Under the pieces are notes generated by a model. The model searched no databases. It was not told the origin of the DNA and worked only from the letters and a program-made list of their open reading frames with translations. Shown piece after piece: positions 1,018 through 44,427 of a DNA stretch of 64,000 nucleotides; the first letter of the stretch is position 1, and every line of letters starts with the position of its first letter. The position numbers and the translations under genes are program-made. The stretch comes from Devosia sp. 66-14 (GTDB taxonomy: Bacteria > Pseudomonadota > Alphaproteobacteria > Rhizobiales > Devosiaceae): assembly GCA_001899085.1 (NCBI GenBank), contig MKVB01000002.1:202440-266439 (forward strand), written 5' to 3'.

Positions 1018-5750
<4,733 letters not shown>

Positions 5751-6331
5751 TTGCAAAGTCCTCTGTTTTGCAGTCGTCTTCGAGACCAGGGCGGGTGCCC
5801 CGGTGTTCAAGTTCCTTTCGACGCGCCTTCAGCCCCCAGTCGTACCTCAGTGTACGGCTCGAATCCGAGTGCGCAATCTTTTAGTGGGGAGCGGCTCTGC
5901 ATCCAAATGGCCGCTCGTACGGGCTCGATAAGGCCCCACCCCTCCGTTTCCGCTATCGACAAGCGGGCCAGCCGGATCGGCGTGTGAAACGCATCCGGGG
6001 AGACCGGCCGCTCACGAAATTGGACAGATGTGCTGTCCTATCGAGGCTACATTTGCATAATTCCAAACTGCGAGCAAGCGTCCGGGGACACTTTTTTGCC
6101 GTGTTATGATCGCGGCAGCGTAGGAGATCACAGGCAGGGAATAGGCAAACAGTAGGAATTGAGCGCCAAGCGCCGCCTGACAAAGCCGTGTTTCGGGCAT
6201 TTTGTGCCTGTCGTGGCTATAGGAGTTGCGGGAACCAAGAACCCGTCGGTACACCGCGGACCGAGCTCCCTATCGACATCCTGATGTCGCGATGTGCATG
6301 TTTCACCTCGCGAAATTACCGCGAGCCAGAG
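5751..6331. other. Intergenic region, divergent upstream of gltB and the cupin gene
   Basis: 581 bases separating the divergent gltB and cupin genes. It must hold both promoters, but I find no convincing -35/-10 pair, operator or structured leader. Short open frames here have no ribosome sites or recognisable content. Confidence 0.5.
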
Positions 6332-33277: not shown

Positions 33278-33667
33278 CTAAGCCCCGACCCGTTCCCCCG
33301 CCAGTTTGCGGATTTCCCTGAGCTCGCCGATCGTCGTTTCGAGATCCGCCTTCTGCCGTTCCAGCAGATCCAGCCGCTCATCCACCTTGGCGACCAGAAG
33401 CTTGGTCTGGGCGGTCTGCGATTGCGCGTCGTAGAGGCTCAGATAGTCCGAGATATCGCGCAGCGAGAAGCCGAGCCGCTTGCCGCGCAGAATCAGGATC
33501 AGGCGGGCGCGATCGCGGCGGCGGAACACGCGGGTGCCGCCGACGCGCTCGGGGTTGAGCAGACCCTTGGCCTCGTAGAAGCGGATGGCGCGGGTCGAGA
33601 TACCGAACTCCTGGCTGAGGTCGGCGATGGCGAACAGGTCGCGGTTTTCGGTTTCAGGCCGGTTCAT
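33278..33667 (-). CDS. MerR-family regulator, probable regulator of the fad genes
   Basis: 129 aa. The MerR winged helix is clear: FAIADLSQEFGISTRAIRFYEAKGLLNPER (11-40) with wing RVFRRRDRARLILI, then an antiparallel coiled coil (AKVDERLDLLERQKADLETTIGELREI). No cysteine effector site, so it does not sense metals. MerR proteins of the LiuR type control branched-chain amino acid and fatty-acid breakdown in other proteobacteria. Its start lies inside the last 14 bases of fadD, so it is co-transcribed with its likely target. The TTGACG-N4-CGTCAA sites are its probable operators (inference). Confidence 0.88.
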   Translation of the reverse strand: MNRPETENRDLFAIADLSQEFGISTRAIRFYEAKGLLNPERVGGTRVFRRRDRARLILILRGKRLGFSLRDISDYLSLYDAQSQTAQTKLLVAKVDERLDLLERQKADLETTIGELREIRKLAGERVGA

Positions 33668-35369
33668 GCTTGTTCTTGCGCTGGGCGTATTCCTCGCGCA
33701 GCTCCTTCTTGCTCAGCTTGCCGATCAAGGTCTTGGGCAACTGGTCCTTGAAGATGATTTCCTTGGGCATCTCGATCTTGTTGAGCGTTTCGGCAAGGAA
33801 TTTCTTGAGTTCGGTTTCGGTGATCTGCTGATCGGGCTTCAGCTTGACGAACGCCACCGGCGCCTCGCCGCGATACTCGTCGGGCACACCGATGACGTTG
33901 GCCTCCTCGACGGCCGGATGGTGCAGCAGCGCTTCCTCGATAGTGCGCGGATAGACGTTGAAGCCCGAGCAGATGATCAGGTCCTTGATCCGGTCGACGA
34001 GAAAGACGTAGCCGTCCGGATCGAGGTAGCCGACGTCGCCGGTGCGCAACCAGCCGTCCATGAAGGCCTCCTTGGTCGCCTCCGGGTTGTCGTAATAGCC
34101 CAGCATCACCTGCGGGCCCTTGACCTGCAGCTCGCCGCGCTCGCCGAGCGGCACGGTTTCGCCGGTCTCGATGTTGACGAAGCGGATATCGGTGCCGGGC
34201 AGCGGCTGGCCGATCGACAAGGGTTTGCTCGGCACGCGCAAGGCCGCACAGCAGACCACCGGCGAGGCCTCGGTCAGCCCATAGCCTTCCGCCAGGAGGG
34301 CGCTCGAGACCTTGCTCCAGTTGTGGCGCACTTCGTCCGACAGCGGCGCGCCGCCCGAAACCGTCACCTCGACCGACACCAGATGCGGCTTGGCCTTGTC
34401 GCCGGCCTTGGACAGGGCCTGCACCAGCGTCGGCACCGCCGGCAGGATATTGGCGCCGGTACGGCTCATCAGATCAAGGAAAGCCTTGAGCTCGAAGCGT
34501 GGCAGCATCACCACCTGTCCGCCGGCCGCCAGCGGCACGTTGAGGCAGGCGGTCATCGAGAAGATGTGGAAGAACGGCAGCACCGCGACGGTGCGGGAAG
34601 GGGCGTTGAACAGGCCGAGCGCCCAGTAGTCGATCTGGCTGAGATTGGCGGCGATGTTAGCGTGGCTGAGCATGGCGCCCTTGGGTAGCCCCGTGGTGCC
34701 GCCGGTATATTGCTGCACGGCCACATCGGTCGCCGCATCGATCGATACCGGGGTCGGGGTCAGCTTGCGATCGATGAGCTTGTTGAAATGCACCACCTTG
34801 GCGGCGATCCGGCTCTGGTCGGGCTTGCTCATGTCCTTGGCTTTGGCGAGGCCGTAAAGCAGCTTCTTCACGGTCGGCAGGGCGTCGGGAAAATGGCAGA
34901 CGATCAGCTTCTTGACGTGTCCCGCATCGACCAGTTCCTCGGCCTTGTCGAACAGGAGCTTGAGGTCGAGCGTCACCATCAGCTCGGCGCCGGAATTGCC
35001 GACGATGTGGCTCAGTTCCTTGACCGTGTAGAGCGGGTTGCAGTTGACCACGATGCCGCCGATCCGCAGCACGGCGTAATAGGCGATGACGTAAAAGGGC
35101 GTGTTGGGCAGCAGCAGCGCGACGCGGGTGCCTTTGCGGACCCCGAGTTCGCTTTGCAGTGCGCCGGCAAAGGCGTTGATCAGGCGGGCGAGTTCGCCGA
35201 AGCGGGTCTTCTTGCCGAGGAAATCCAGCGCATCGGCATTCGGCGTGCGCGCGCAGGTGGCAAGAACCGTCTCATGCACCGGAGTGGTGTTGATCGGCAC
35301 GTCCCAGGAGATGCCCTCGGGATAGTGGTCGGTCCACGGGCGCATGGCGCCCGCCGCGGTGTTGGCCAT
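33654..35369 (-). CDS. fadD: Long-chain fatty-acid-CoA ligase
   Basis: 571 aa. It activates fatty acids to acyl-CoA through an acyl-adenylate. The P-loop-like motif is YTGGTTGLPKGA, with GYGLTEASPV, the hinge DGWLRTGDVGYLDPDGYVFLVDRIKDLI and the late catalytic lysine in PKTLIGKLSKKEL. ATG 35369 follows AGGAGGAAAGAAG, a very strong ribosome site. It shares a divergent promoter region with fadE; an inverted repeat covers its -35 box. It is the first enzyme of the pathway encoded by the locus. Confidence 0.95.
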   Translation of the reverse strand: MANTAAGAMRPWTDHYPEGISWDVPINTTPVHETVLATCARTPNADALDFLGKKTRFGELARLINAFAGALQSELGVRKGTRVALLLPNTPFYVIAYYAVLRIGGIVVNCNPLYTVKELSHIVGNSGAELMVTLDLKLLFDKAEELVDAGHVKKLIVCHFPDALPTVKKLLYGLAKAKDMSKPDQSRIAAKVVHFNKLIDRKLTPTPVSIDAATDVAVQQYTGGTTGLPKGAMLSHANIAANLSQIDYWALGLFNAPSRTVAVLPFFHIFSMTACLNVPLAAGGQVVMLPRFELKAFLDLMSRTGANILPAVPTLVQALSKAGDKAKPHLVSVEVTVSGGAPLSDEVRHNWSKVSSALLAEGYGLTEASPVVCCAALRVPSKPLSIGQPLPGTDIRFVNIETGETVPLGERGELQVKGPQVMLGYYDNPEATKEAFMDGWLRTGDVGYLDPDGYVFLVDRIKDLIICSGFNVYPRTIEEALLHHPAVEEANVIGVPDEYRGEAPVAFVKLKPDQQITETELKKFLAETLNKIEMPKEIIFKDQLPKTLIGKLSKKELREEYAQRKNKHEPA

Positions 35370-35398: not shown

Positions 35399-35437
35399 GT
35401 TAGCGGGAAATATCCCATCAATTGACGTTAGCGTCAA
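35399..35437 (-). promoter_or_regulatory. fadD-merR promoter with MerR-type operator
   Basis: The inverted repeat TTGACG-TTAG-CGTCAA occupies 35422-35437. On the minus strand its left half is a -35 box TTGACG, followed after 17 bases by GATATT near 35409-35414. Repressor or activator bound here would control polymerase entry directly. Confidence 0.65.
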
Positions 35438-35522
35438 ACCAACGACGTAACTTGGCCAGCGTTCCCGCTGCCACAGGCACGGAAACGCGATTGCCGTTGC
35501 GACATGCAGTTAAGGTCCATTT

Positions 35523-35552
35523 GTTGACGTATACGTCAACCGCTGCTATTTT
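35523..35552 (+). promoter_or_regulatory. fadE-fadJ-fadI promoter with MerR-type operator
   Basis: The perfect 18-bp palindrome GTTGACGTATACGTCAAC (35523-35540) contains the -35 box TTGACG (35524-35529). After a 17-base spacer comes TATTTT (35547-35552). This is the same geometry as the divergent fadD promoter. About 200 bases of untranslated leader follow before fadE. Confidence 0.7.
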
Positions 35553-35760
35553 GTGGTGATGGCGCCGGCCCGGGCACTACAATCGGCAACAAGAATCGAA
35601 GCGGGCGCGTTGTTGAGCGAGGGCTCGTCTCGCTCATTCGACGGTGCGCCGCGACCTGGAGGGCTTGTCGAAGCGCTCCAGGTGTTTGACTTTTCACGCT
35701 TTCAAACCGGAAAAGTTGCACAGCTTTTCCTGAAGGCGCTCAGGTCGAGGAGAGATGTGC

Positions 35761-38247
35761 ATGGTCTGGGCGCTGCTGATCCTGTCGATTGTCGCTTTCG
35801 CCGTGCTGGCGATGCGCCGTGCCCCGCTCTGGCAATGGGCGGTGGCAGCGCTGCTGATCGGCGCTCTGACCCGGATCTCGACCGATAACGGGCTTTGGCT
35901 GATGACGGATGCGCTGGGCTGGATCCTGGCGCTTCTGCCGGCCGTCATTCTTGGTCTCCTGGCGCTCACTCCGGTTCGCAAGCTGGTGCTCACCGGTCCG
36001 GCCTATGGCGTCGTCAAATCCATCCTGCCGCGCGTCAGCCGCACCGAGCAGGAGGCGCTCGATGCCGGCACGGTCGGCTGGGATGCCGAGCTGTTCTCGG
36101 GGCGGCCCGACTGGAGCAAGCTGCTCGGGGTGCGCAAGCCGACGCTGTCCACCGAGGAGCAGGCGTTCCTCGACGGGCCGTGCGAAAAAGTCTGCGCCAT
36201 GATCGACGACTGGGACACGCGCAACAACCGCGCCGACATGCCGCCCGCGGTCTGGACCTATCTCAAGGAGCAGGGCTTTCTCGGCATGCTGATCGGCCGC
36301 GAGCACGGCGGGCTCGGCTTTTCGGCGCAGGCGCAGAGCCAGGTGGTGTCGAAGATCGCGTCGCGCTCGATCGCTGCCGGCATTACCGTGATGGTGCCCA
36401 ACTCGCTCGGCCCGGGCGAACTGCTCGAGAAATACGGCACAGAGGAGCAGAAGAAGAAGTATCTCACCCGCCTCGCCAAAGGCCAGGAAGTGCCGTGCTT
36501 CGCCCTCACCGGCCCGCATGCCGGCTCGGATGCGGCGGGTATGCGCGATGTGGGCGTCGTCTGCTACGACATGTATGAGGGCAAGAAGACGCTGGGGGTG
36601 AAGCTCAGTTGGGACAAGCGCTACATCACGCTGGCGCCGGTGGCGACGCTGCTGGGCCTTGCCTTCCACCTGCATGACCCGGAGCACCTGATCGGCGAGG
36701 TCGACAATATCGGCATCACGCTGGCGCTGGTCCCGGCCAAGCACAAGGGCGTCAAGATCGGTCGCCGGCACTATCCGGCCCGCTCGGCTTTCATGAACGG
36801 CCCGACGCAGGGGCGCAACGTCTTCATCCCGATGGATTTCCTGATCGGCGGCACGGCATATGCCGGGCAGGGCTGGCGCATGCTGATGGAGTGTCTGGCC
36901 ACCGGCCGCGCCATCTCGCTGCCGGCCATCGGCACGGTGTCGATCAAGCACGCGCTGCGGGTCACCTCGGCCTATGCCCGGATCCGCCGGCAGTTCGGCA
37001 TTCCCGTCGGATTGATGGAGGGGGTGGCCGAGCCGCTGAGCCGCATGGTGCGCTTTGCCTATACCTACGAAGCGTCGCGCGGCCTCACCGCCTCGATGGT
37101 CGATGAGGGGCAGCGCCCCTCGGTGCTGTCGGCGCTGCTCAAGTACCGCACCACCGAGGCGATGCGGCTCGCCTTCAACGACGCCATGGACATCCATGGC
37201 GGCCGCGCCGTGCAGGATGGCCCGACCAACTATCTGTTCTCGGGCTACATGACGACGCCGGTGGCGATCACCGTCGAGGGCGCCAATATCCTGACGCGCA
37301 CGCTGATCACCTTCGCGCAGGGGGCACTGCGCGCGCACCCCTATCTCTATGCCGAAATCTCGGCGGCGCAGAACCAGGACCGGAAAGCCGGCATCGCCGC
37401 GTTCGATACCGCGTTTTCCGGCCATGTCGGCTTCATGCTGCGCAACATGTTGGGCAGCTTCCTCCACGCGGTGAGCTTTGGCGCCTTCGCCTCGAGTCCG
37501 GTGACGCACGAGATGGCGCATTGGTACAAGCAGCTCAGCCGCTACAGCCAGAGCTTTGCGCTGTGCGGCGACTGGACGGTGGCGTTTCTCGGCGGCGACC
37601 TCAAACGCAAGCAGCGGCTTTCGGGCCGCATGGCCGATATCCTTTCCGACCTCTATCTCCTCTCCGCCGTGCTCCGGCGTTACGAGGATGACGGACGGCT
37701 GGCCGAGGATCGCCCGGTGGTCGAGGCGATCGCCCGCGACCTCTGCTACTCGCTGGAGCAGAGCTTTGCGGCGGTGTTCGCCAACTTCCCGAACTTTGCG
37801 CTCCGGAACCTCATGCGGGTTCTGGTGTTCCCCCTGGGTCGCCACGCCAAGCCCGCCTCGGACCGCGAAACCTATCGGCTGGCCCGTTCGGTGCTGCAGC
37901 CGGGCGCCTTCCGCGACCGGCTCACCAAGGGAACTTATGTCTCGATGGACCCCAAGGATCCGACCGGCGTCCTCGAAGACGCTCTGCTCAAGGTCACCGG
38001 CGCCGCCGAAATCGAGACCAAGTTCGTGCGCGCCATCAAGAAGGGCGTGGTGGAGCGGCGGCTCGATCGCGACGCGATCAGCGATGCGGTGGAAGCGGGC
38101 GTGCTGACCGAAGCCGAGGCGGCAACGCTGCGGCTCGCCGACCAGGCCACCGATCGGGTGATCAAGGTGGACGACTTCGACTTCGACGAGCTCGGCTCCA
38201 GGCAGTTGCGTCGCGAGCCGGCAGCCGTCGACGCCGCCGCCGAATAG
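35761..38247 (+). CDS. fadE: Acyl-CoA dehydrogenase, membrane-associated FadE type
   Basis: 828 aa, matching the long FadE class rather than 380-residue soluble ACADs. Hydrophobic N-terminal segments (MVWALLILSIVAFAVLAM; WAVAALLIGAL; LGWILALLPAVILGLLAL) anchor it. The ACAD core follows (CFALTGPHAGSDAAGM; GTVSIKHALRVTSAYARIRRQFG; MDIHGGRAVQDGPTNYL), then the FadE-specific C-terminal extension. It makes the first double bond in beta-oxidation. ATG 35761 is spaced better from GAGGAG than the ATG two codons earlier. It heads a likely fadE-fadJ-fadI operon. Confidence 0.93.
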   Translation: MVWALLILSIVAFAVLAMRRAPLWQWAVAALLIGALTRISTDNGLWLMTDALGWILALLPAVILGLLALTPVRKLVLTGPAYGVVKSILPRVSRTEQEALDAGTVGWDAELFSGRPDWSKLLGVRKPTLSTEEQAFLDGPCEKVCAMIDDWDTRNNRADMPPAVWTYLKEQGFLGMLIGREHGGLGFSAQAQSQVVSKIASRSIAAGITVMVPNSLGPGELLEKYGTEEQKKKYLTRLAKGQEVPCFALTGPHAGSDAAGMRDVGVVCYDMYEGKKTLGVKLSWDKRYITLAPVATLLGLAFHLHDPEHLIGEVDNIGITLALVPAKHKGVKIGRRHYPARSAFMNGPTQGRNVFIPMDFLIGGTAYAGQGWRMLMECLATGRAISLPAIGTVSIKHALRVTSAYARIRRQFGIPVGLMEGVAEPLSRMVRFAYTYEASRGLTASMVDEGQRPSVLSALLKYRTTEAMRLAFNDAMDIHGGRAVQDGPTNYLFSGYMTTPVAITVEGANILTRTLITFAQGALRAHPYLYAEISAAQNQDRKAGIAAFDTAFSGHVGFMLRNMLGSFLHAVSFGAFASSPVTHEMAHWYKQLSRYSQSFALCGDWTVAFLGGDLKRKQRLSGRMADILSDLYLLSAVLRRYEDDGRLAEDRPVVEAIARDLCYSLEQSFAAVFANFPNFALRNLMRVLVFPLGRHAKPASDRETYRLARSVLQPGAFRDRLTKGTYVSMDPKDPTGVLEDALLKVTGAAEIETKFVRAIKKGVVERRLDRDAISDAVEAGVLTEAEAATLRLADQATDRVIKVDDFDFDELGSRQLRREPAAVDAAAE

Positions 38248-38295
38248 ACACCCCGAGCGTTTTCCGCAAACGCTCTAGAGAACGAGGAGCCGGAA

Positions 38296-40266
38296 ATGGC
38301 CCAATCGCAGATGCCGTCAAGCCGCGCCTGGAGTTTCGACCTCGATTTCGAGGGGATCGGCTGGCTCACCATCGATGTGCCCGATGCTCCGGTGAACACG
38401 CTGAGCCGTGAGACGTTGTCGGAGCTGATGGGGATCGTTACGGGGCTCGAGCAACTGGCGGCGTCGGGCGAGCTCAAGGGCGTGGTGCTGCTGTCGGGCA
38501 AGGAAAGCGGCTTCATCGCCGGGGCTGACGTCACCGAGTTCGACGACATGGCCGACCCCGGCGTGCTGAAGGCGGCGCTCGACCGGGCGCATGCGCTGTT
38601 CGACCGGATCGAGGCGCTCAAGGTGCCGATGGTCGCCGGCATCCATGGCTTCTGCCTCGGCGGTGGGCTGGAGCTGGCGCTCAGCTGCCAATACCGGATC
38701 GCCGTCAACGACGACAAGACACGCATCGGTTTCCCCGAAGTCAATCTCGGCATTTTTCCGGGCTTTGGCGGCTCGGGCCGCTCGATCCGGCAAGCCGGCC
38801 CGGTCGATGCGATGCAGATCATGCTGACCGGGAAGCTCCTGCGCGCCGGGCAGGCTCGCCGCATGGGGCTGGTCGACAAGCTGGTGCGGCACCGCGACAC
38901 CCTGCGCTGGGAAGCGAGAAAAGCCGTGCTGCAGAACAGAAAGAGCAGCGAGGCGCCGCTCGCCAAGCGGGCCGCCGCTTTCGGCCCGGTCCGCGGCTAC
39001 ATAGCCAACAAGATGCGCGAAGAGGCGAAGAAGAAGGCCAACCCGGCGCATTTCCCGGCGCCTTATGCGCTGATCGACCTGTTCGAAGAACACGGCAATG
39101 ACTGGCGCGCCATGAAGGCGGGGGAGGCCGAGCGCTTCATCCCGCTGATGGAATCCCCCACCTCGAAAAACCTGCGCCGGGTGTTCTTTCTCTCCGAGGG
39201 CCTGAAGAAGCAGGGCGTGCGCGGCAAGGACAAGCCGGTGTTCCGGCGTGTCCATGTGGTCGGCGCCGGCGTCATGGGCGGCGACATCGCCGCCTGGTGC
39301 GCCCTGCGCGGCATGGGCGTGACGCTGCAGGATCTCGACATGGAGCGCATCAAGCCGGCGCTTGAGCGCGCCAGGAAACTGTTCAAGAAGCGCCTCCGCA
39401 CCAAGACCGAGATCGACAACGCCGTGGCCCGGCTGGAGGCCGATGTCAGCGGCAAGGGCATCGCCCGGGCCGATGTGATCATCGAGGCGGTGGTCGAAAA
39501 GCTCGAGATCAAGCACAAGGTGTTCATCGACGCCGAACTCCGGGCTCGGCCCGACGCGATCCTCGCGACCAACACCTCCTCGATCGAACTCGAGCGCATC
39601 GCCGAAGGGCTGACCAACCCGAACCGGTTGATCGGGCTGCATTTCTTCAACCCGGTGGCGCAGCTGCCGCTGGTCGAGGTGATCCGTTCGAGCTTCAACT
39701 CCGACGAGGATATTGCGCGCGGCGCCAGCTTTGCGCTCGCCATCGGCAAATCGCCGGTGGTGGTCAAGTCGGCGCGCGGTTTCCTCGTCAACCGGGTGCT
39801 GATGCCCTACATGCTCGCCGCCGTGCAGCGGGTCGAGGGCGGGGCCAGCAAGGAACAGATCGATGCCGCGGCCGTCGCCTTCGGCATGCCGATGGGGCCG
39901 ATCGAGCTGATGGATACGGTCGGGCTCGATGTCGGCAAGTTCGTCGCCGAGGAGTTGGGCAGCCCGGTATCGCCGGCCAGCGATTTCGCCCGGCTCGTCG
40001 CCGAGAACAAGCTGGGCCGCAAGAGCGGGCAGGGGTTCTATACCTGGACCGACGGCAAGGCGGTGAAGGGCGAGGTGCCGCCGCATCCGGATCTCGCCGG
40101 GTTGGGGCGGGAACTGGTGCAGCCGCTGGTCGACGCCACGGAAATCGCCGTGGCCGAAGGGGTTGTCGCCTCGGCCGATCTCGCCGATATCGGCGTCATC
40201 TACGGGACCGGCTTTGCGCCGTTCCTAGGGGGGCCGATGCAGGCCCGCAAGGACGGGAGAGCCTGA
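38296..40266 (+). CDS. fadJ: Fatty-acid oxidation multifunctional enzyme: enoyl-CoA hydratase / 3-hydroxyacyl-CoA dehydrogenase
   Basis: 656 aa, somewhat shorter than E. coli FadB/FadJ (about 715-730). The N-terminal crotonase domain has FIAGADVTEF and HGFCLGGGLELALSCQYRIA with the FPEVNLGIFPGFGG glutamate. The NAD domain begins VHVVGAGVMGGDIAAWCA, then NTSSIELERIAEGL, IGLHFFNPVAQLPLVEV (catalytic His) and RGFLVNRVLMPY. It carries out steps two and three of the cycle. The ribosome site is ACGAGGAG. A GAGCGTTT-CCGC-AAACGCTC-like hairpin lies just upstream, between it and fadE. Confidence 0.94.
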   Translation: MAQSQMPSSRAWSFDLDFEGIGWLTIDVPDAPVNTLSRETLSELMGIVTGLEQLAASGELKGVVLLSGKESGFIAGADVTEFDDMADPGVLKAALDRAHALFDRIEALKVPMVAGIHGFCLGGGLELALSCQYRIAVNDDKTRIGFPEVNLGIFPGFGGSGRSIRQAGPVDAMQIMLTGKLLRAGQARRMGLVDKLVRHRDTLRWEARKAVLQNRKSSEAPLAKRAAAFGPVRGYIANKMREEAKKKANPAHFPAPYALIDLFEEHGNDWRAMKAGEAERFIPLMESPTSKNLRRVFFLSEGLKKQGVRGKDKPVFRRVHVVGAGVMGGDIAAWCALRGMGVTLQDLDMERIKPALERARKLFKKRLRTKTEIDNAVARLEADVSGKGIARADVIIEAVVEKLEIKHKVFIDAELRARPDAILATNTSSIELERIAEGLTNPNRLIGLHFFNPVAQLPLVEVIRSSFNSDEDIARGASFALAIGKSPVVVKSARGFLVNRVLMPYMLAAVQRVEGGASKEQIDAAAVAFGMPMGPIELMDTVGLDVGKFVAEELGSPVSPASDFARLVAENKLGRKSGQGFYTWTDGKAVKGEVPPHPDLAGLGRELVQPLVDATEIAVAEGVVASADLADIGVIYGTGFAPFLGGPMQARKDGRA

Positions 40267-40267
40267 G

Positions 40268-41551
40268 ATGGCCGAGTTGCGCAAAGTCGCCATCGTGGGC
40301 TCGGCCCGCATCCCCTTTGCCCGCGCCTATACCGGCTATGCCGAAGAGGGAAACCTCTCGATGCTGGGTGCGGCGCTCGGTGGGCTCGTCGACAAGTACA
40401 ACCTCAAGGGCGAAGCGATCGGCGAGGTGATGGCCGGCGCCGTGCTGAGCCACAGCCGGGATTTCAACCTCGCTCGCGAAGCCAGCCTCGATGCCGGCCT
40501 GTCGCCGCGCACCCCCGGCACCAATGTGCAGATCGCCTGCGGCACCTCGCTGCAGGCGGCGCTGGCGCTCGGGGCCAAGATCGCTATCGGCGAGATCGAC
40601 AGCGGCATCGCCGCCGGCTCCGACACGGTGTCGGACAGCCCGGTGGTATTCGGCGACAAGTTCCAGCACCGGATGATCGAGCTCAGCCGCGCCCGCACAA
40701 CGGGCGAAAAGTTCAAGGTGTTCAAGGGCTTCAACCTGGGCGAACTCACCCCGATCGCGCCCTCGACGCAGGAGCCGCGCACGGGTCTGTCGATGGGCCA
40801 GCACTGCGAACTGATGGCCCGACAGTGGGAGATTTCCCGGGAGGAGCAGGATGCGCTGGCGCTGAAGAGCCACCAGAACGCCGCCCGCGCCTATGACGAG
40901 GGCTTCCACGACGACCTGATCGTGCCGTTCGCCGGGGTGCTCAAGGACAATAATGTCCGGGCCGATACCAGCCTCGAGAAGATGGCGACGATGAAACCGG
41001 CCTTCGACAAGAGTTCGGGCAAGGGTACCTTGACTGCCGCTAACTCCACCCCGCTCACCGACGGCGCCGCTTCGGTGCTGCTGGCCAGCGAAGAGTGGGC
41101 GAAGGCGCGCGGCCTGCCGGTGCTCGCCTACCTGACGCTCGGCCAGGTGGCGGCCAACGACTTCGCCCATGGCGAGGGGCTGCTGATGGCGCCGACCATC
41201 GCCGCGTCCGAGATGCTGCGCCGCTCCAACCTGACCTTCGACGATATCGACCTGTTCGAGATCCATGAGGCATTCGCGGCGCAGGTGCTGGCGACGCTCA
41301 AGGCTTGGCGCGATCCCGACTACAACCGCCACGTGCTCGGCCGCGAGACGCCGCTGGGGGAGATCGACCCCGACAAGATCAACACCAAGGGCTCGAGCCT
41401 CGCCTATGGCCACCCCTTCGCCGCGACCGGCGCCCGCATTCTCGGCCTCACCGCCAAGCTGCTCAACAGCACGGAAAAGCAGCGCGCCCTGATCTCCGTC
41501 TGCACTGCCGGCGGCATGGGGGTGACGGCGCTGGTCGAGCGCGCGGCATGA
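40268..41551 (+). CDS. fadI: Acetyl-CoA C-acyltransferase (thiolase), FadI type
   Basis: 427 aa. It cleaves 3-ketoacyl-CoA to acetyl-CoA. The acyl-accepting cysteine is in QIACGTSLQAA near residue 94; the other catalytic blocks are EIHEAFAAQVLA, GSSLAYGHPFAATGAR and CTAGGMGVTALVE. DNNVRADTSLEKMATMKPAFD and LTAANSTPLTDGAA favour FadI over FadA. It starts two bases after the fadJ stop. A third copy of the fad inverted repeat lies 58 bases after its stop. Confidence 0.94.
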   Translation: MAELRKVAIVGSARIPFARAYTGYAEEGNLSMLGAALGGLVDKYNLKGEAIGEVMAGAVLSHSRDFNLAREASLDAGLSPRTPGTNVQIACGTSLQAALALGAKIAIGEIDSGIAAGSDTVSDSPVVFGDKFQHRMIELSRARTTGEKFKVFKGFNLGELTPIAPSTQEPRTGLSMGQHCELMARQWEISREEQDALALKSHQNAARAYDEGFHDDLIVPFAGVLKDNNVRADTSLEKMATMKPAFDKSSGKGTLTAANSTPLTDGAASVLLASEEWAKARGLPVLAYLTLGQVAANDFAHGEGLLMAPTIAASEMLRRSNLTFDDIDLFEIHEAFAAQVLATLKAWRDPDYNRHVLGRETPLGEIDPDKINTKGSSLAYGHPFAATGARILGLTAKLLNSTEKQRALISVCTAGGMGVTALVERAA

Positions 41552-41608
41552 CGTCCGAGGGCTCGATAAACCTCCCGTGATGCTGGCGTTTCCACAGGGG
41601 CATGGCTC

Positions 41609-41624
41609 TTGACGCTTACGTCAA
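41609..41624 (+). promoter_or_regulatory. Third fad-type inverted repeat, between fadI and oppA
   Basis: TTGACG-CTTA-CGTCAA, the same arms and spacing as the sites at 35422 and 35524. Unlike those, neither strand shows a good -10 box 17 bases on. It is 140 bases before oppA, so it could regulate the peptide transporter, or be a relic. Confidence 0.55.
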
Positions 41625-41763
41625 GGTCCGGCTTGTCAGCGAAAACCTGATGCCATAGGGTCCGTACCCAATCGGGCGGTTCCGACCAGTCCGGCCAAAA
41701 TGAGGCATGGCGTACTAATTGCCGTGCCCGTCAGGAAATGTCTTTCATGGAGATGGGACAACA

Positions 41764-43380
41764 ATGAAAATAACACAGGTCCTCAAAGCGGTGACAACCG
41801 CCGGCGCGTTAGCGCTGATGATGTCGAGCGCGGCGTTGGCCGTGACGCTCAATCTGGGCAATGGCGGCGAGCCTGGTTCGCTCGACCCGCACAAGGTTTC
41901 GGGCGACTGGGAGAATCGCATCGTTTCCGAGTACCTCGAAGGCCTCGTGACCGAGGACGCGCAGGCCAAGGCGATTGCCGGCCAGGCGGAATCGTGGACC
42001 ATCTCCGACGACGGCCTCGTCTATACCTTCAAGATCCGCGGCGATGCCGTGTGGTCGGACAATGTGCCGGTGACGGCGCAGAACTGGGTCGACGCCTTCC
42101 AGCGCCTGTTCGACCCCAAGACCGCGTCCGAGTACGCGTATCTGCAGTATCCGATCAAGAACTCGTCCAAGATCGCGGCCGGTGAGATCACCGACTTCAG
42201 CCAGCTCGGCGTCAAGGCCGTGGACGACAAGACCCTCGAGATCACGCTCGAAGCGGCTACCCCGTATTTCCTCGATGCGCTCGCGCACTACACCGCCTTC
42301 CCGATCCGCAAGGACATCATCGAGAAGTTCGGCGACCAGTGGACCCAGCCGGCGAACATCGTCGGCAACGGCCCGTACAAGATCGTCGAGTGGGTGCCGG
42401 GTTCGTATCTGCGCGGCGTCAAGTCGGACACCTATTACGGCAAGGCCGACCTCAAGATCGACGAGATCCGCTGGGACAATACCGAGGACCTGACCGCGGC
42501 GCTCAACCGCTATCGCGCCGGTGAACTCGATATCCTCACCGACTTCCCCGCCGACCAGTACAAGTTCCTGCAGGACAACTACCCGGGCCAGGCCCATGTG
42601 GCGCCGTTCCTGGGCATCTACTACTACGTGCTGAACCAGTCCAAGCCGCCGCTGGACAACGTCAACATCCGCAAGGCCCTGTCGATCTCGGTGCTGCGTG
42701 ACGTCATCGGGCCGGACGTGCTGGGCACCGGCGAACTGCCGGCCTATGGCTGGGTCCCGCCGGGCACCGGCAATTATGAAGGCACTCCCTACGCTCCGGA
42801 TTGGGCCGAAATGCCCTATGATCAGCGCGTCGAGGAAGCCAAGAAGCTGATGACGGAAGCCGGCTACGGCCCGGACAAGCCGCTGAAGCTGCAGCTGCGC
42901 TACAACACCAACGAGAACCACAAGCGCATCGCGGTGGCCATCACCGACATGTGGAAGCAGATCGGCGTCGAAGTCGAACTGTTCAACGCCGAAACCGCGG
43001 TGCACTACGACGCGCTGCGCGCCGGTGACTTCAACGTCGGCCGCGCCGGCTGGCTGCTCGACTATGATGATGCCTCCAACACCCTCGACCTCCTGAAGAC
43101 CGGCACCAAGGGCACCGACGGCACCATCAACTGGGGCAACAACTACGGCCGCTATTCCGATCCGAAGTTCGACGAGCTGATGACCGCAGCCTCGAGCGAG
43201 CTGGACCTGGTCAAGCGCGCCGGCCAGATGCACGAAGCCGAGAAGATCGCCATGGACGCTTTCGCGGCCATCCCGATCTACTGGTACGTGTCCAAGAACG
43301 TCGTGTCGCCCAAGGTCACGGGCTTCGAAGACAACGCCAAGGACATTCACCGTGTCCGCTGGATGACTAAGTCGGAATAA
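41764..43380 (+). CDS. oppA: Oligopeptide ABC transporter, periplasmic binding protein
   Basis: 538 aa. Signal peptide MKITQVLKAVTTAGALALMM ends ALA-VTLNLGNG. The mature start (GGEPGSLDPHKVSGDWENRIVSEYLEGLV) and IVGNGPYKIVEWVPGS are typical of the SBP_bac_5 peptide-binding family. It has no lipobox cysteine, so it is soluble in the periplasm. ATG 41764 follows GGAGATGGGAC. First gene of a five-gene importer operon; substrate choice (peptides in general or a narrower set) cannot be read. Confidence 0.92.
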   Translation: MKITQVLKAVTTAGALALMMSSAALAVTLNLGNGGEPGSLDPHKVSGDWENRIVSEYLEGLVTEDAQAKAIAGQAESWTISDDGLVYTFKIRGDAVWSDNVPVTAQNWVDAFQRLFDPKTASEYAYLQYPIKNSSKIAAGEITDFSQLGVKAVDDKTLEITLEAATPYFLDALAHYTAFPIRKDIIEKFGDQWTQPANIVGNGPYKIVEWVPGSYLRGVKSDTYYGKADLKIDEIRWDNTEDLTAALNRYRAGELDILTDFPADQYKFLQDNYPGQAHVAPFLGIYYYVLNQSKPPLDNVNIRKALSISVLRDVIGPDVLGTGELPAYGWVPPGTGNYEGTPYAPDWAEMPYDQRVEEAKKLMTEAGYGPDKPLKLQLRYNTNENHKRIAVAITDMWKQIGVEVELFNAETAVHYDALRAGDFNVGRAGWLLDYDDASNTLDLLKTGTKGTDGTINWGNNYGRYSDPKFDELMTAASSELDLVKRAGQMHEAEKIAMDAFAAIPIYWYVSKNVVSPKVTGFEDNAKDIHRVRWMTKSE

Positions 43381-43422: not shown

Positions 43423-43503
43423 TCCTTGCTTTTCTAGCAAACTAGCATTTGCCGCCGGCTTACGGCGTTGCCCCGCGGGCTGGCGGGAAAGGTCACACAC
43501 AAG

Positions 43504-44427
43504 ATGCTCGGTTATGCGCTCAGGCGCGTGCTTACGGCTATTCCGATCGTGCTCCTCACGATTACGGTCTGCTTCTTCATTCTGCGGCTGGCGCCCGGCG
43601 GTCCCTTCGACGGTGAACGCGCGCTGCCGCCCGATCAGCTCAGAAACCTGCGCGCCTACTACCATCTGGACGAACCGCTGATCATGCAGTTCTTCGGCTA
43701 TATCGGCGGCGTGCTCAGGGGCGATTTCGGCCCCTCGATGGTGATGAAGGATTTCAACGTCTCGCGCCTCATCGGCATCGGGCTGCCCTTCACCCTGATG
43801 CTGGGCTTTTCCGCCTTCGTCGTCGGCACCATCGGCGGCATGCTCGCCGGCGCCGTCGCCGCGGTGAACCAGAACAAGTGGCCCGACTACCTGCTGGTCG
43901 CCATCGTGCTGGTCGGCATCATCATCCCGAACTTCCTGATGGCGAACCTGGTGCAGCTGCTGTTCGGCGTCTATCTCGGCTGGCTGCCGGTCGGCGGCTA
44001 TCAGCCCGGCTCGCTCATCCACCTGGTGCTGCCGGTGTTCATCCTGGCGCTGCCGCATGGCGGGCGTGTCGCCCGGCTGGTGCGCGGCTCGATGATCGAA
44101 GTGCTGGGCACCAATTATGTGCGCACCGCCAGATCCAAGGGTCTCGGCACCAGGCTGATCCTCGCCCGGCATGCGCTGAAACCGGCGCTGCTGCCGGTGG
44201 TCTCCTATCTCGGGCCGGGCCTCTCCTACCTCCTCACCGGGTCCCTGGTGGTGGAGCAGGTGTTCTCGCTGCCCGGCATCGGCAAATACTTCATCACCGC
44301 CGCACTGAACCGCGACTACGGCCTCGTGCTCGGCACCACCATTCTCTACGTTTTCATCATCCTGGCGCTGAACCTTCTGGTGGACATCCTCTACGCCTGG
44401 CTCGATCCCAAGGTGAGGTACCGCTGA
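43504..44427 (+). CDS. oppB: Oligopeptide ABC transporter permease OppB
   Basis: 307 aa, six predicted membrane helices; the first is YALRRVLTAIPIVLLTITVCFFI. The N-terminal LRLAPGGPFDGERALP block and the cytoplasmic EAA-type loop (RTARSKGLGTRLILARHALKPALLPV) that docks on the ATPase are both present. ATG 43504 (MLGYALRR) is the family start. Its stop TGA overlaps the oppC ATG by one base. Confidence 0.94.
   Translation: MLGYALRRVLTAIPIVLLTITVCFFILRLAPGGPFDGERALPPDQLRNLRAYYHLDEPLIMQFFGYIGGVLRGDFGPSMVMKDFNVSRLIGIGLPFTLMLGFSAFVVGTIGGMLAGAVAAVNQNKWPDYLLVAIVLVGIIIPNFLMANLVQLLFGVYLGWLPVGGYQPGSLIHLVLPVFILALPHGGRVARLVRGSMIEVLGTNYVRTARSKGLGTRLILARHALKPALLPVVSYLGPGLSYLLTGSLVVEQVFSLPGIGKYFITAALNRDYGLVLGTTILYVFIILALNLLVDILYAWLDPKVRYR

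Follow-up and report, generated by a model that had tools for sequence, protein, structure and literature searches.

The MerR-family protein encoded together with fadD in Devosia sp. 66-14 is likely an autoregulated, LiuR-like repressor of fatty-acid degradation, which would bind as a dimer to the palindrome TTGACGYWWRCGTCAA and be released by an acyl-CoA. As judged from comparative sequence analysis, a MerR-controlled fatty-acid regulon is well supported, because TTGACGYWWRCGTCAA occurred 74 times, in 34 of the 61 genomes compared, versus no match for the reversed control (the genomes are related, and the site counts are therefore not independent), merR overlaps fadD, a merR homologue was detected in 35 of the 37 Devosiaceae genomes, and a relaxed form of the motif precedes merR in sphingomonads. 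Such a regulon had been proposed in the original prediction; the sites did mark the fad genes and merR occurred with them, while the link between the MerR protein and the palindrome remains one that we infer. For Devosia and its family, this makes the fatty-acid regulon concrete enough to test, as a candidate regulator is named and the operators are defined to the base.

The locus and its MerR protein

The whole stretch of DNA that was analyzed, here called the window, was 64 kb in length. Exact copies of TTGACG-N4-CGTCAA had been claimed at 35422, 35524 and 41609, and all three were found there (Table 1). With up to two mismatches, the palindrome matched the window 10 times, versus a mean of 2.48 and a maximum of 6 in 100 shuffles. 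For the first two sites only, an architecture of -35 box, 17-bp spacer and -10 box had also been claimed, and it could be read at both, as TTGACG-17 bp-GATATT for fadD-merR and TTGACG-17 bp-TATTTT for fadE-fadJ-fadI. Operator 3 had no -10-like hexamer at 16–18 bp, where the best candidate had two of six matches.

Table 1. Genes, operators and predicted promoter elements of the locus, in window coordinates.
Feature	Position	Strand	Remarks
merR	33278..33667	-	129-aa MerR-family regulator, proposed repressor; 14-base overlap with the 3' end of fadD
fadD, long-chain acyl-CoA ligase-like	33654..35369	-	Pfam AMP-binding above gathering score
-10 GATATT, predicted fadD-merR promoter	35409..35414	-	17 bp from TTGACG; extended TGn in front
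Operator 1, fadD side	35422..35437	.	TTGACGTTAGCGTCAA; minus-strand reading TTGACGCTAACGTCAA gives the -35 of the predicted fadD-merR promoter
Operator 2, fadE side	35524..35539	.	TTGACGTATACGTCAA; gives the -35 of the predicted fadE promoter
-10 TATTTT, predicted fadE promoter	35547..35552	+	17 bp from TTGACG
fadE, E. coli-type long acyl-CoA dehydrogenase	35755..38247	+	NF007000 and NF009586 above cut-off; Pfam match
fadJ-like, fatty-acid oxidation complex alpha subunit	38296..40266	+	Hydratase and 3-hydroxyacyl-CoA dehydrogenase domains
fadI-like thiolase	40268..41551	+	Above cut-off for NF006740 and TIGR01930, below it for FadI models; Pfam match
Operator 3	41609..41624	.	TTGACGCTTACGTCAA; in the gap from fadI to the opp-type operon; conserved CTTGTCA 7 nt further 3'
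TTGTCA, candidate -35 element for opp	41633..41638	+	17 bp before TAGGGT (41656-41661); putative assignment
oppA-like, family-5 substrate-binding protein	41764..43380	+	SBP_bac_5; OppA model best, below cut-off

The fadD gene also matched NCBIfam models for long-chain-fatty-acid--CoA ligases, but below their cut-offs, and the FadJ models, which scored best in NCBIfam for the fadJ-like gene, were likewise below cut-off. The oppA-like gene opens an ABC transporter operon, with a permease-like ORF at 43468-44427 and further genes after it.

The MerR protein had been described as lacking metal-binding cysteines and as co-encoded with fadD; it indeed contained no cysteine and its ORF overlapped fadD. 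The MerR proteins of 30 Devosiaceae relatives were also devoid of cysteine. The scores of the window's protein against models of metal sensors were far below the cut-offs, with 54.9 bits versus 143 for the Zn-responsive PRK09514 and 48.2 versus 147.4 for CueR. The N-terminal winged helix-turn-helix of MerR proteins was present (PF13411, 2e-14; PF00376, 1.1e-9), as was the MerR-DNA-bind or dimerization segment (PF09278, 4.4e-14). Because the MerR_1 match (residues 13–77) and the MerR-DNA-bind match (residues 53–118) together fill residues 13–118 of 129, there would be little space left for a distinct ligand domain. At this locus it should be easy to test how a MerR protein of this small size might sense fatty-acid or acyl-CoA status.

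Recurrence of the palindrome and its association with merR

In the 5.72-Mb genome, TTGACG-N4-CGTCAA occurred as six exact palindromes, versus one for the reversed control. One of them (C1:339670), inside a reading frame that by eye resembles metH, was dismissed as a chance match, and another had the off-type centre CAAC. With one mismatch the loose pattern matched 32 places versus 27 for the control, mostly background, and the tight form TTGACGYWWRCGTCAA was therefore used. It gave four sites versus none for the control: the three of the window, at fadD, fadE and opp, and a fourth before maoC that the original prediction did not contain. A one-mismatch site at C1:1071779 was left uncounted, since it sits between reading frames with no clear target. 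The motif scan of this genome and its relatives, proposed earlier as a check, thus returned recurrent sites at fadD-merR, fadE, maoC and opp.

The locus at C10:5666-5681 (L024:4667-4682) carried TTGACGCAACCGTCAA in a promoter-like conserved stretch that separates a metC/metZ-like gene from an operon resembling those of amino-acid ABC transporters (both named by eye). In an alignment of 18 genus loci its TTGACG was kept and its right arm was variable, with an exact palindrome in 12, and it was excluded from the regulon for this drift. The sequence TTGAC is the -35 consensus. TTGACG is a good -35, and this transporter palindrome, which keeps it as the right arm drifts, shows what would be expected if the repeats were strong -35 boxes that happened to be palindromic. 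We give that explanation next to no credence, because the counts over the 61 genomes leave the reversed control empty, and because all of the palindrome, including the YWWR centre, recurs not only at fadD/fadE but also at maoC and opp, where TTGACG would not be used as a -35.

The genomes compared were our own and 60 relatives, comprising 37 Devosiaceae and 24 others of the order. All 74 tight sites could be placed: the fadD/fadE region accounted for 40, maoC for 15, opp for 12 and other places for seven. The fad-region sites were mostly flanked by both fadD and fadE (34); five had fadE only, and one had only a distant FadD (35% identity) in its stretch. The pairing of sites between fadD and fadE that had been seen in the window was recovered in part: two exact sites were present in 10 of the 30 mapped regions and one in the other 20. 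At the 12 opp sites, the substrate-binding protein was 37–100% identical to that of the window.

Among the seven other sites, one at a contig end had maoC-type neighbours, with the one that maoC has in our own genome recognized by eye. Two preceded a threonine-aldolase gene and one a gene for a lysine/arginine-type substrate-binding protein, and there was one each before genes for a zinc-type quinone-oxidoreductase-like protein, a PF00487 membrane protein and a thioesterase-like protein; two of the seven precede lipid-type genes. The threonine-aldolase-type sites (L065:1501-1516 and L067:1501-1516) came from two genomes of the same genus. The PF00487 site (L101:2028-2043) was seen in one relative, 64 nt 5' of the ATG of a protein that is AlkB-like by eye, and it would widen the regulon to alkane oxidation. 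Across the class, TTKACGYWWRCGTMAA was present in 24 of 77 genomes, versus 4 of 77 for the control.

A merR homologue (E <= 1e-15) was found in 54 of the 61 genomes, which outside the Devosiaceae means 19 of the 24 order-level relatives. Among the 35 merR-bearing Devosiaceae, 29 had an exact tight site, and the remaining six had relaxed-motif matches at 14–16 of 16 positions, in stretches of 4–6.5 kb that were scanned with no control alongside. The two Devosiaceae genomes with no merR match were both incomplete (82% and 60%), and one of them, G013 (82%), has sites. Among the order-level relatives the tight motif was present in only four of 24, although merR was found in 19, and the five with no merR match also had no tight site.

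Upstream regions of the merR operon (450 bp, one cut by a contig end) were examined in 80 named loci, the best-matching ones among at least 590 relatives. Within this set, the relaxed motif matched at 15 or 16 of 16 positions in 44, versus none of 80 for the reversed motif; the site was found in 11 of 12 Devosia-type loci, 4 of 5 further loci of the fadD-merR type, 19 of the 23 where an acyl-CoA dehydrogenase was hit (for the most part sphingomonads), 3 of 4 Thalassospira-type loci, 2 of 3 loci labelled IVD and 1 of 3 unlabelled loci, and it was rare at fadD-merR-fadAB (1 of 16) and merR-fadAB (3 of 14) loci.

These distributions bear on whether merR is the regulator or merely a target of another transcription factor acting on the palindrome, such as a fatty-acid regulator of the TetR or GntR type. 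Within the Devosiaceae merR is second in the fadD operon, so that the linkage alone could reflect fadD, and G013 has palindrome sites with no merR match. In the sphingomonad-rich group, however, 19 of 23 loci carry a relaxed site immediately in front of merR, and no fadD precedes the gene there, from which it follows that the motif accompanies merR even where fadD is absent, and the five order-level genomes that had neither merR match nor tight site also speak against another factor. We therefore regard control by another factor as unlikely and MerR as the better candidate. The low counts at fadAB loci and in the order-level genomes imply that the motif or the regulon drifts outside the Devosiaceae; by sequence, the motif follows merR, though not in every lineage.

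Some loci had doubled operators, in which two relaxed palindromes overlap at a 6-bp offset. In L196 these were found in front of merR and also of a gene for an acyl-CoA dehydrogenase that is IVD-like by eye (4960-4981 and 6285-6306), and doubled relaxed operators were also seen in five class-level genomes (G079, G089, G092, G117 and G128). Three Thalassospira records and one Rhodospirillales record (L163, L165, L178 and L184) formed a merR branch of their own (98, starred) with no hits to the fad references; in L163, L165 and L184 a big convergent neighbour gene was ADP-forming acyl-CoA synthetase-like (by eye).

Three operator positions

Spacers of 10–26 bp were scored against TATAAT at each fad site, with the proximal gene assigned by a script rule. 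At fadD-proximal sites, a -10 with at least four of six matches lay at 17 bp in 13 of 16 cases, and at every other spacer in 0–3 of 16. At fadE-proximal sites the peak was also at 17 bp (11 of 24), with three more at 16 bp, four at 18 bp and 0–2 elsewhere. A -10 with four matches was missing from 3 of 16 fadD-proximal sites (at 17 bp) and 6 of 24 fadE-proximal sites (at 16–18 bp). An extended TGn preceded the -10 position of fadD in 15 of the 16 fadD-proximal sites.

In classical MerR promoters the operator lies between boxes that are 19–20 bp apart, and bound activator untwists this long spacer. The MerR fold of the Devosia protein, and the fact that CueR and MerR proteins were its best sequence matches among solved structures, would suit such an activator. 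Its geometry was not found at the fad sites, where the operator covers the predicted -35 instead of lying between the boxes and the spacers peak at 17 bp (18 of 24 fadE sites at 16–18 bp), whereas a 19-bp spacer was read in 0 of 16 fadD and 2 of 24 fadE sites, and a 20-bp spacer in 1 of 16 and 0 of 24. Classical activation thus appears very unlikely.

Occupation of the -35 or the -10 by the dimer is, from the sequences, the simplest reading of the repressor proposed here. A MerR dimer would sit on TTGACGYWWRCGTCAA. At fadD-merR and fadE-fadJ-fadI, the palindrome would comprise the -35 box and the first 10 bp of a 16–18-bp spacer, so that the bound protein would exclude RNA polymerase. The plain repression that had been suggested from an operator over the -35 with a normal spacer fits the predicted promoters of fadD and fadE, with their 17-bp peak; it need not hold at opp, where another -35-like element follows downstream of the site.

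In our genome the maoC site precedes a pair of MaoC-type hydratase genes, and the ATG of the first begins 7 nt past the last base of the operator. Among the 15 maoC sites, 13 end 3–7 nt before the A of the ATG. In 12 of these 13 close sites a TTG starts 17 or 18 nt 5' of the operator. The centre was TATA in 11 of the 13 and TAAA in two; TATACG or TAAACG can therefore serve as a -10 with a 17–18-bp spacer. Transcription would then start at about the start codon, and the message is probably leaderless. Here too plain repression is probable, as the operator covers the predicted -10 beside the start codon: at maoC1-maoC2 the TATA-CG at the centre of the palindrome would be the -10 box, 17–18 bp after a TTG-type -35, and a bound dimer would block it.

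At all 12 opp sites the operator was followed by CTTGTC, with 1–7 nt between. If TTGTCA-17-TAGGGT is the promoter, the operator in the window would be centred near -52, and by its sequence this geometry is not one of simple occlusion. Bound just 5' of the TTGTCA element, MerR could modulate in either direction. The regulator could accordingly be dual, a repressor at fad and maoC and an activator or upstream modulator at opp, for which the candidate -35 CTTGTC just past the palindrome in every opp site would argue. We give this limited credence, since the opp promoter is itself a prediction and the operator could also repress, serve another promoter or be neutral. To our knowledge, no MerR protein activates by upstream contact. 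In the most novel form of this reading, a single small MerR with no separate sensor domain might work from three fixed geometries (over the -35, on a leaderless -10 and upstream of a -35), repressing fad and maoC and acting differently, possibly as an activator, at the peptide importer, although we rather doubt it. Either way, the locus allows three operator positions to be compared for one MerR-type repressor. Further 3' of the opp operator, a stretch in the window at 41653-41673, CCATAGGGTCCGTACCCAATC, was shared unchanged by 8 of the 12 opp sites, some of them in genomes with differing flanks, and is possibly the site of a second regulator.

The repressor as proposed would be released by something that fatty-acid activation produces. 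An acyl-CoA is the most likely, and it is the natural guess for the ligand because fadD is co-encoded with merR.

Relation to LiuR and other regulators

Published descriptions present LiuR as a repressor of the MerR family (PMC3223726) and as a repressor of transcription, with mention of a putative LiuR-antagonizing protein (PMC8871633). Its regulons are listed for 103 genomes in 15 groups, under branched-chain amino-acid utilization (PMC5343134), and in Rhodospirillum rubrum LiuR and its box are linked to butyrate assimilation (PMC7238569). In other proteobacteria, fatty-acid degradation is regulated by FadR, PsrA and FadP (PMC5343134). These belong to other protein families, FadR to GntR and PsrA and FadP to TetR. 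The Devosia MerR shares its DNA-binding fold, by sequence, with the metal- and redox-responsive activators CueR, MerR and SoxR, and differs from them in having no cysteines, an operator over the -35 and a 17-bp spacer. The binding motifs of FadR, PsrA and FadP also differ from the Devosia palindrome.

By description, the Devosia protein, as a proposed repressor, resembles LiuR, a small MerR protein with a repressor role (PMC3223726), and also LiuR of Pseudomonas aeruginosa (liuRABCDE), a repressor encoded in an operon under its control (PMC8871633). P. aeruginosa LiuR, unlike the proposed Devosia regulator, controls leucine catabolism. In Devosia, unlike LiuR systems, merR and fadD make up one operon, FadE, FadJ and FadI of the E. 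coli type are the enzymes, maoC and opp are added, and none of the four tight TTGACGYWWRCGTCAA sites of the genome is at liu/ivd genes. Fatty-acid targets in alphaproteobacteria are reportedly a shared trait: Kazakov et al., writing in J Bacteriol in 2009, are reported to have predicted fatty-acid degradation for LiuR orthologues in 22 alphaproteobacterial species. LiuR binds a 16-bp palindrome of the same type. Two LiuR-like traits were found here, an acyl-CoA degradation regulon (for fatty acids) and a 16-bp palindrome shared near the regulator operon (44 versus 0 in the 80 best-matching loci among at least 590 relatives), which we take to be LiuR's motif.

A quick LG+G4 tree was made from 118 chosen rows and 144 columns, with context labels assigned by script from tblastn hits and by eye. 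Its rows were fad-linked, acyl-CoA-dehydrogenase-linked and (by eye) IVD-linked MerR homologues, which fell in one tree. As 42 of its 113 inner branches were open and a long-branch warning was given, the sole grouping relied on was that of the 26 Devosia-type rows, which formed one side of a starred branch (98). Three of the four rows labelled IVD, by resemblance, were in another group than the Devosia type, and the fourth, L213, was nearer to other fadD-linked rows; L196 and L219 had no IVD model above cut-off.

Within the limited literature searched, no paper on Devosia or on MerR operators of fatty-acid genes was found. Because of the LiuR literature, the assignment attributed to Kazakov et al. 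and the tree, the regulon is ranked with the known LiuR-type switches, and by this analysis it looks like a further case of a switch already described in related bacteria. The detail that it adds to the known LiuR-type regulons lies in its members maoC and opp and in the three positions taken by the operator.
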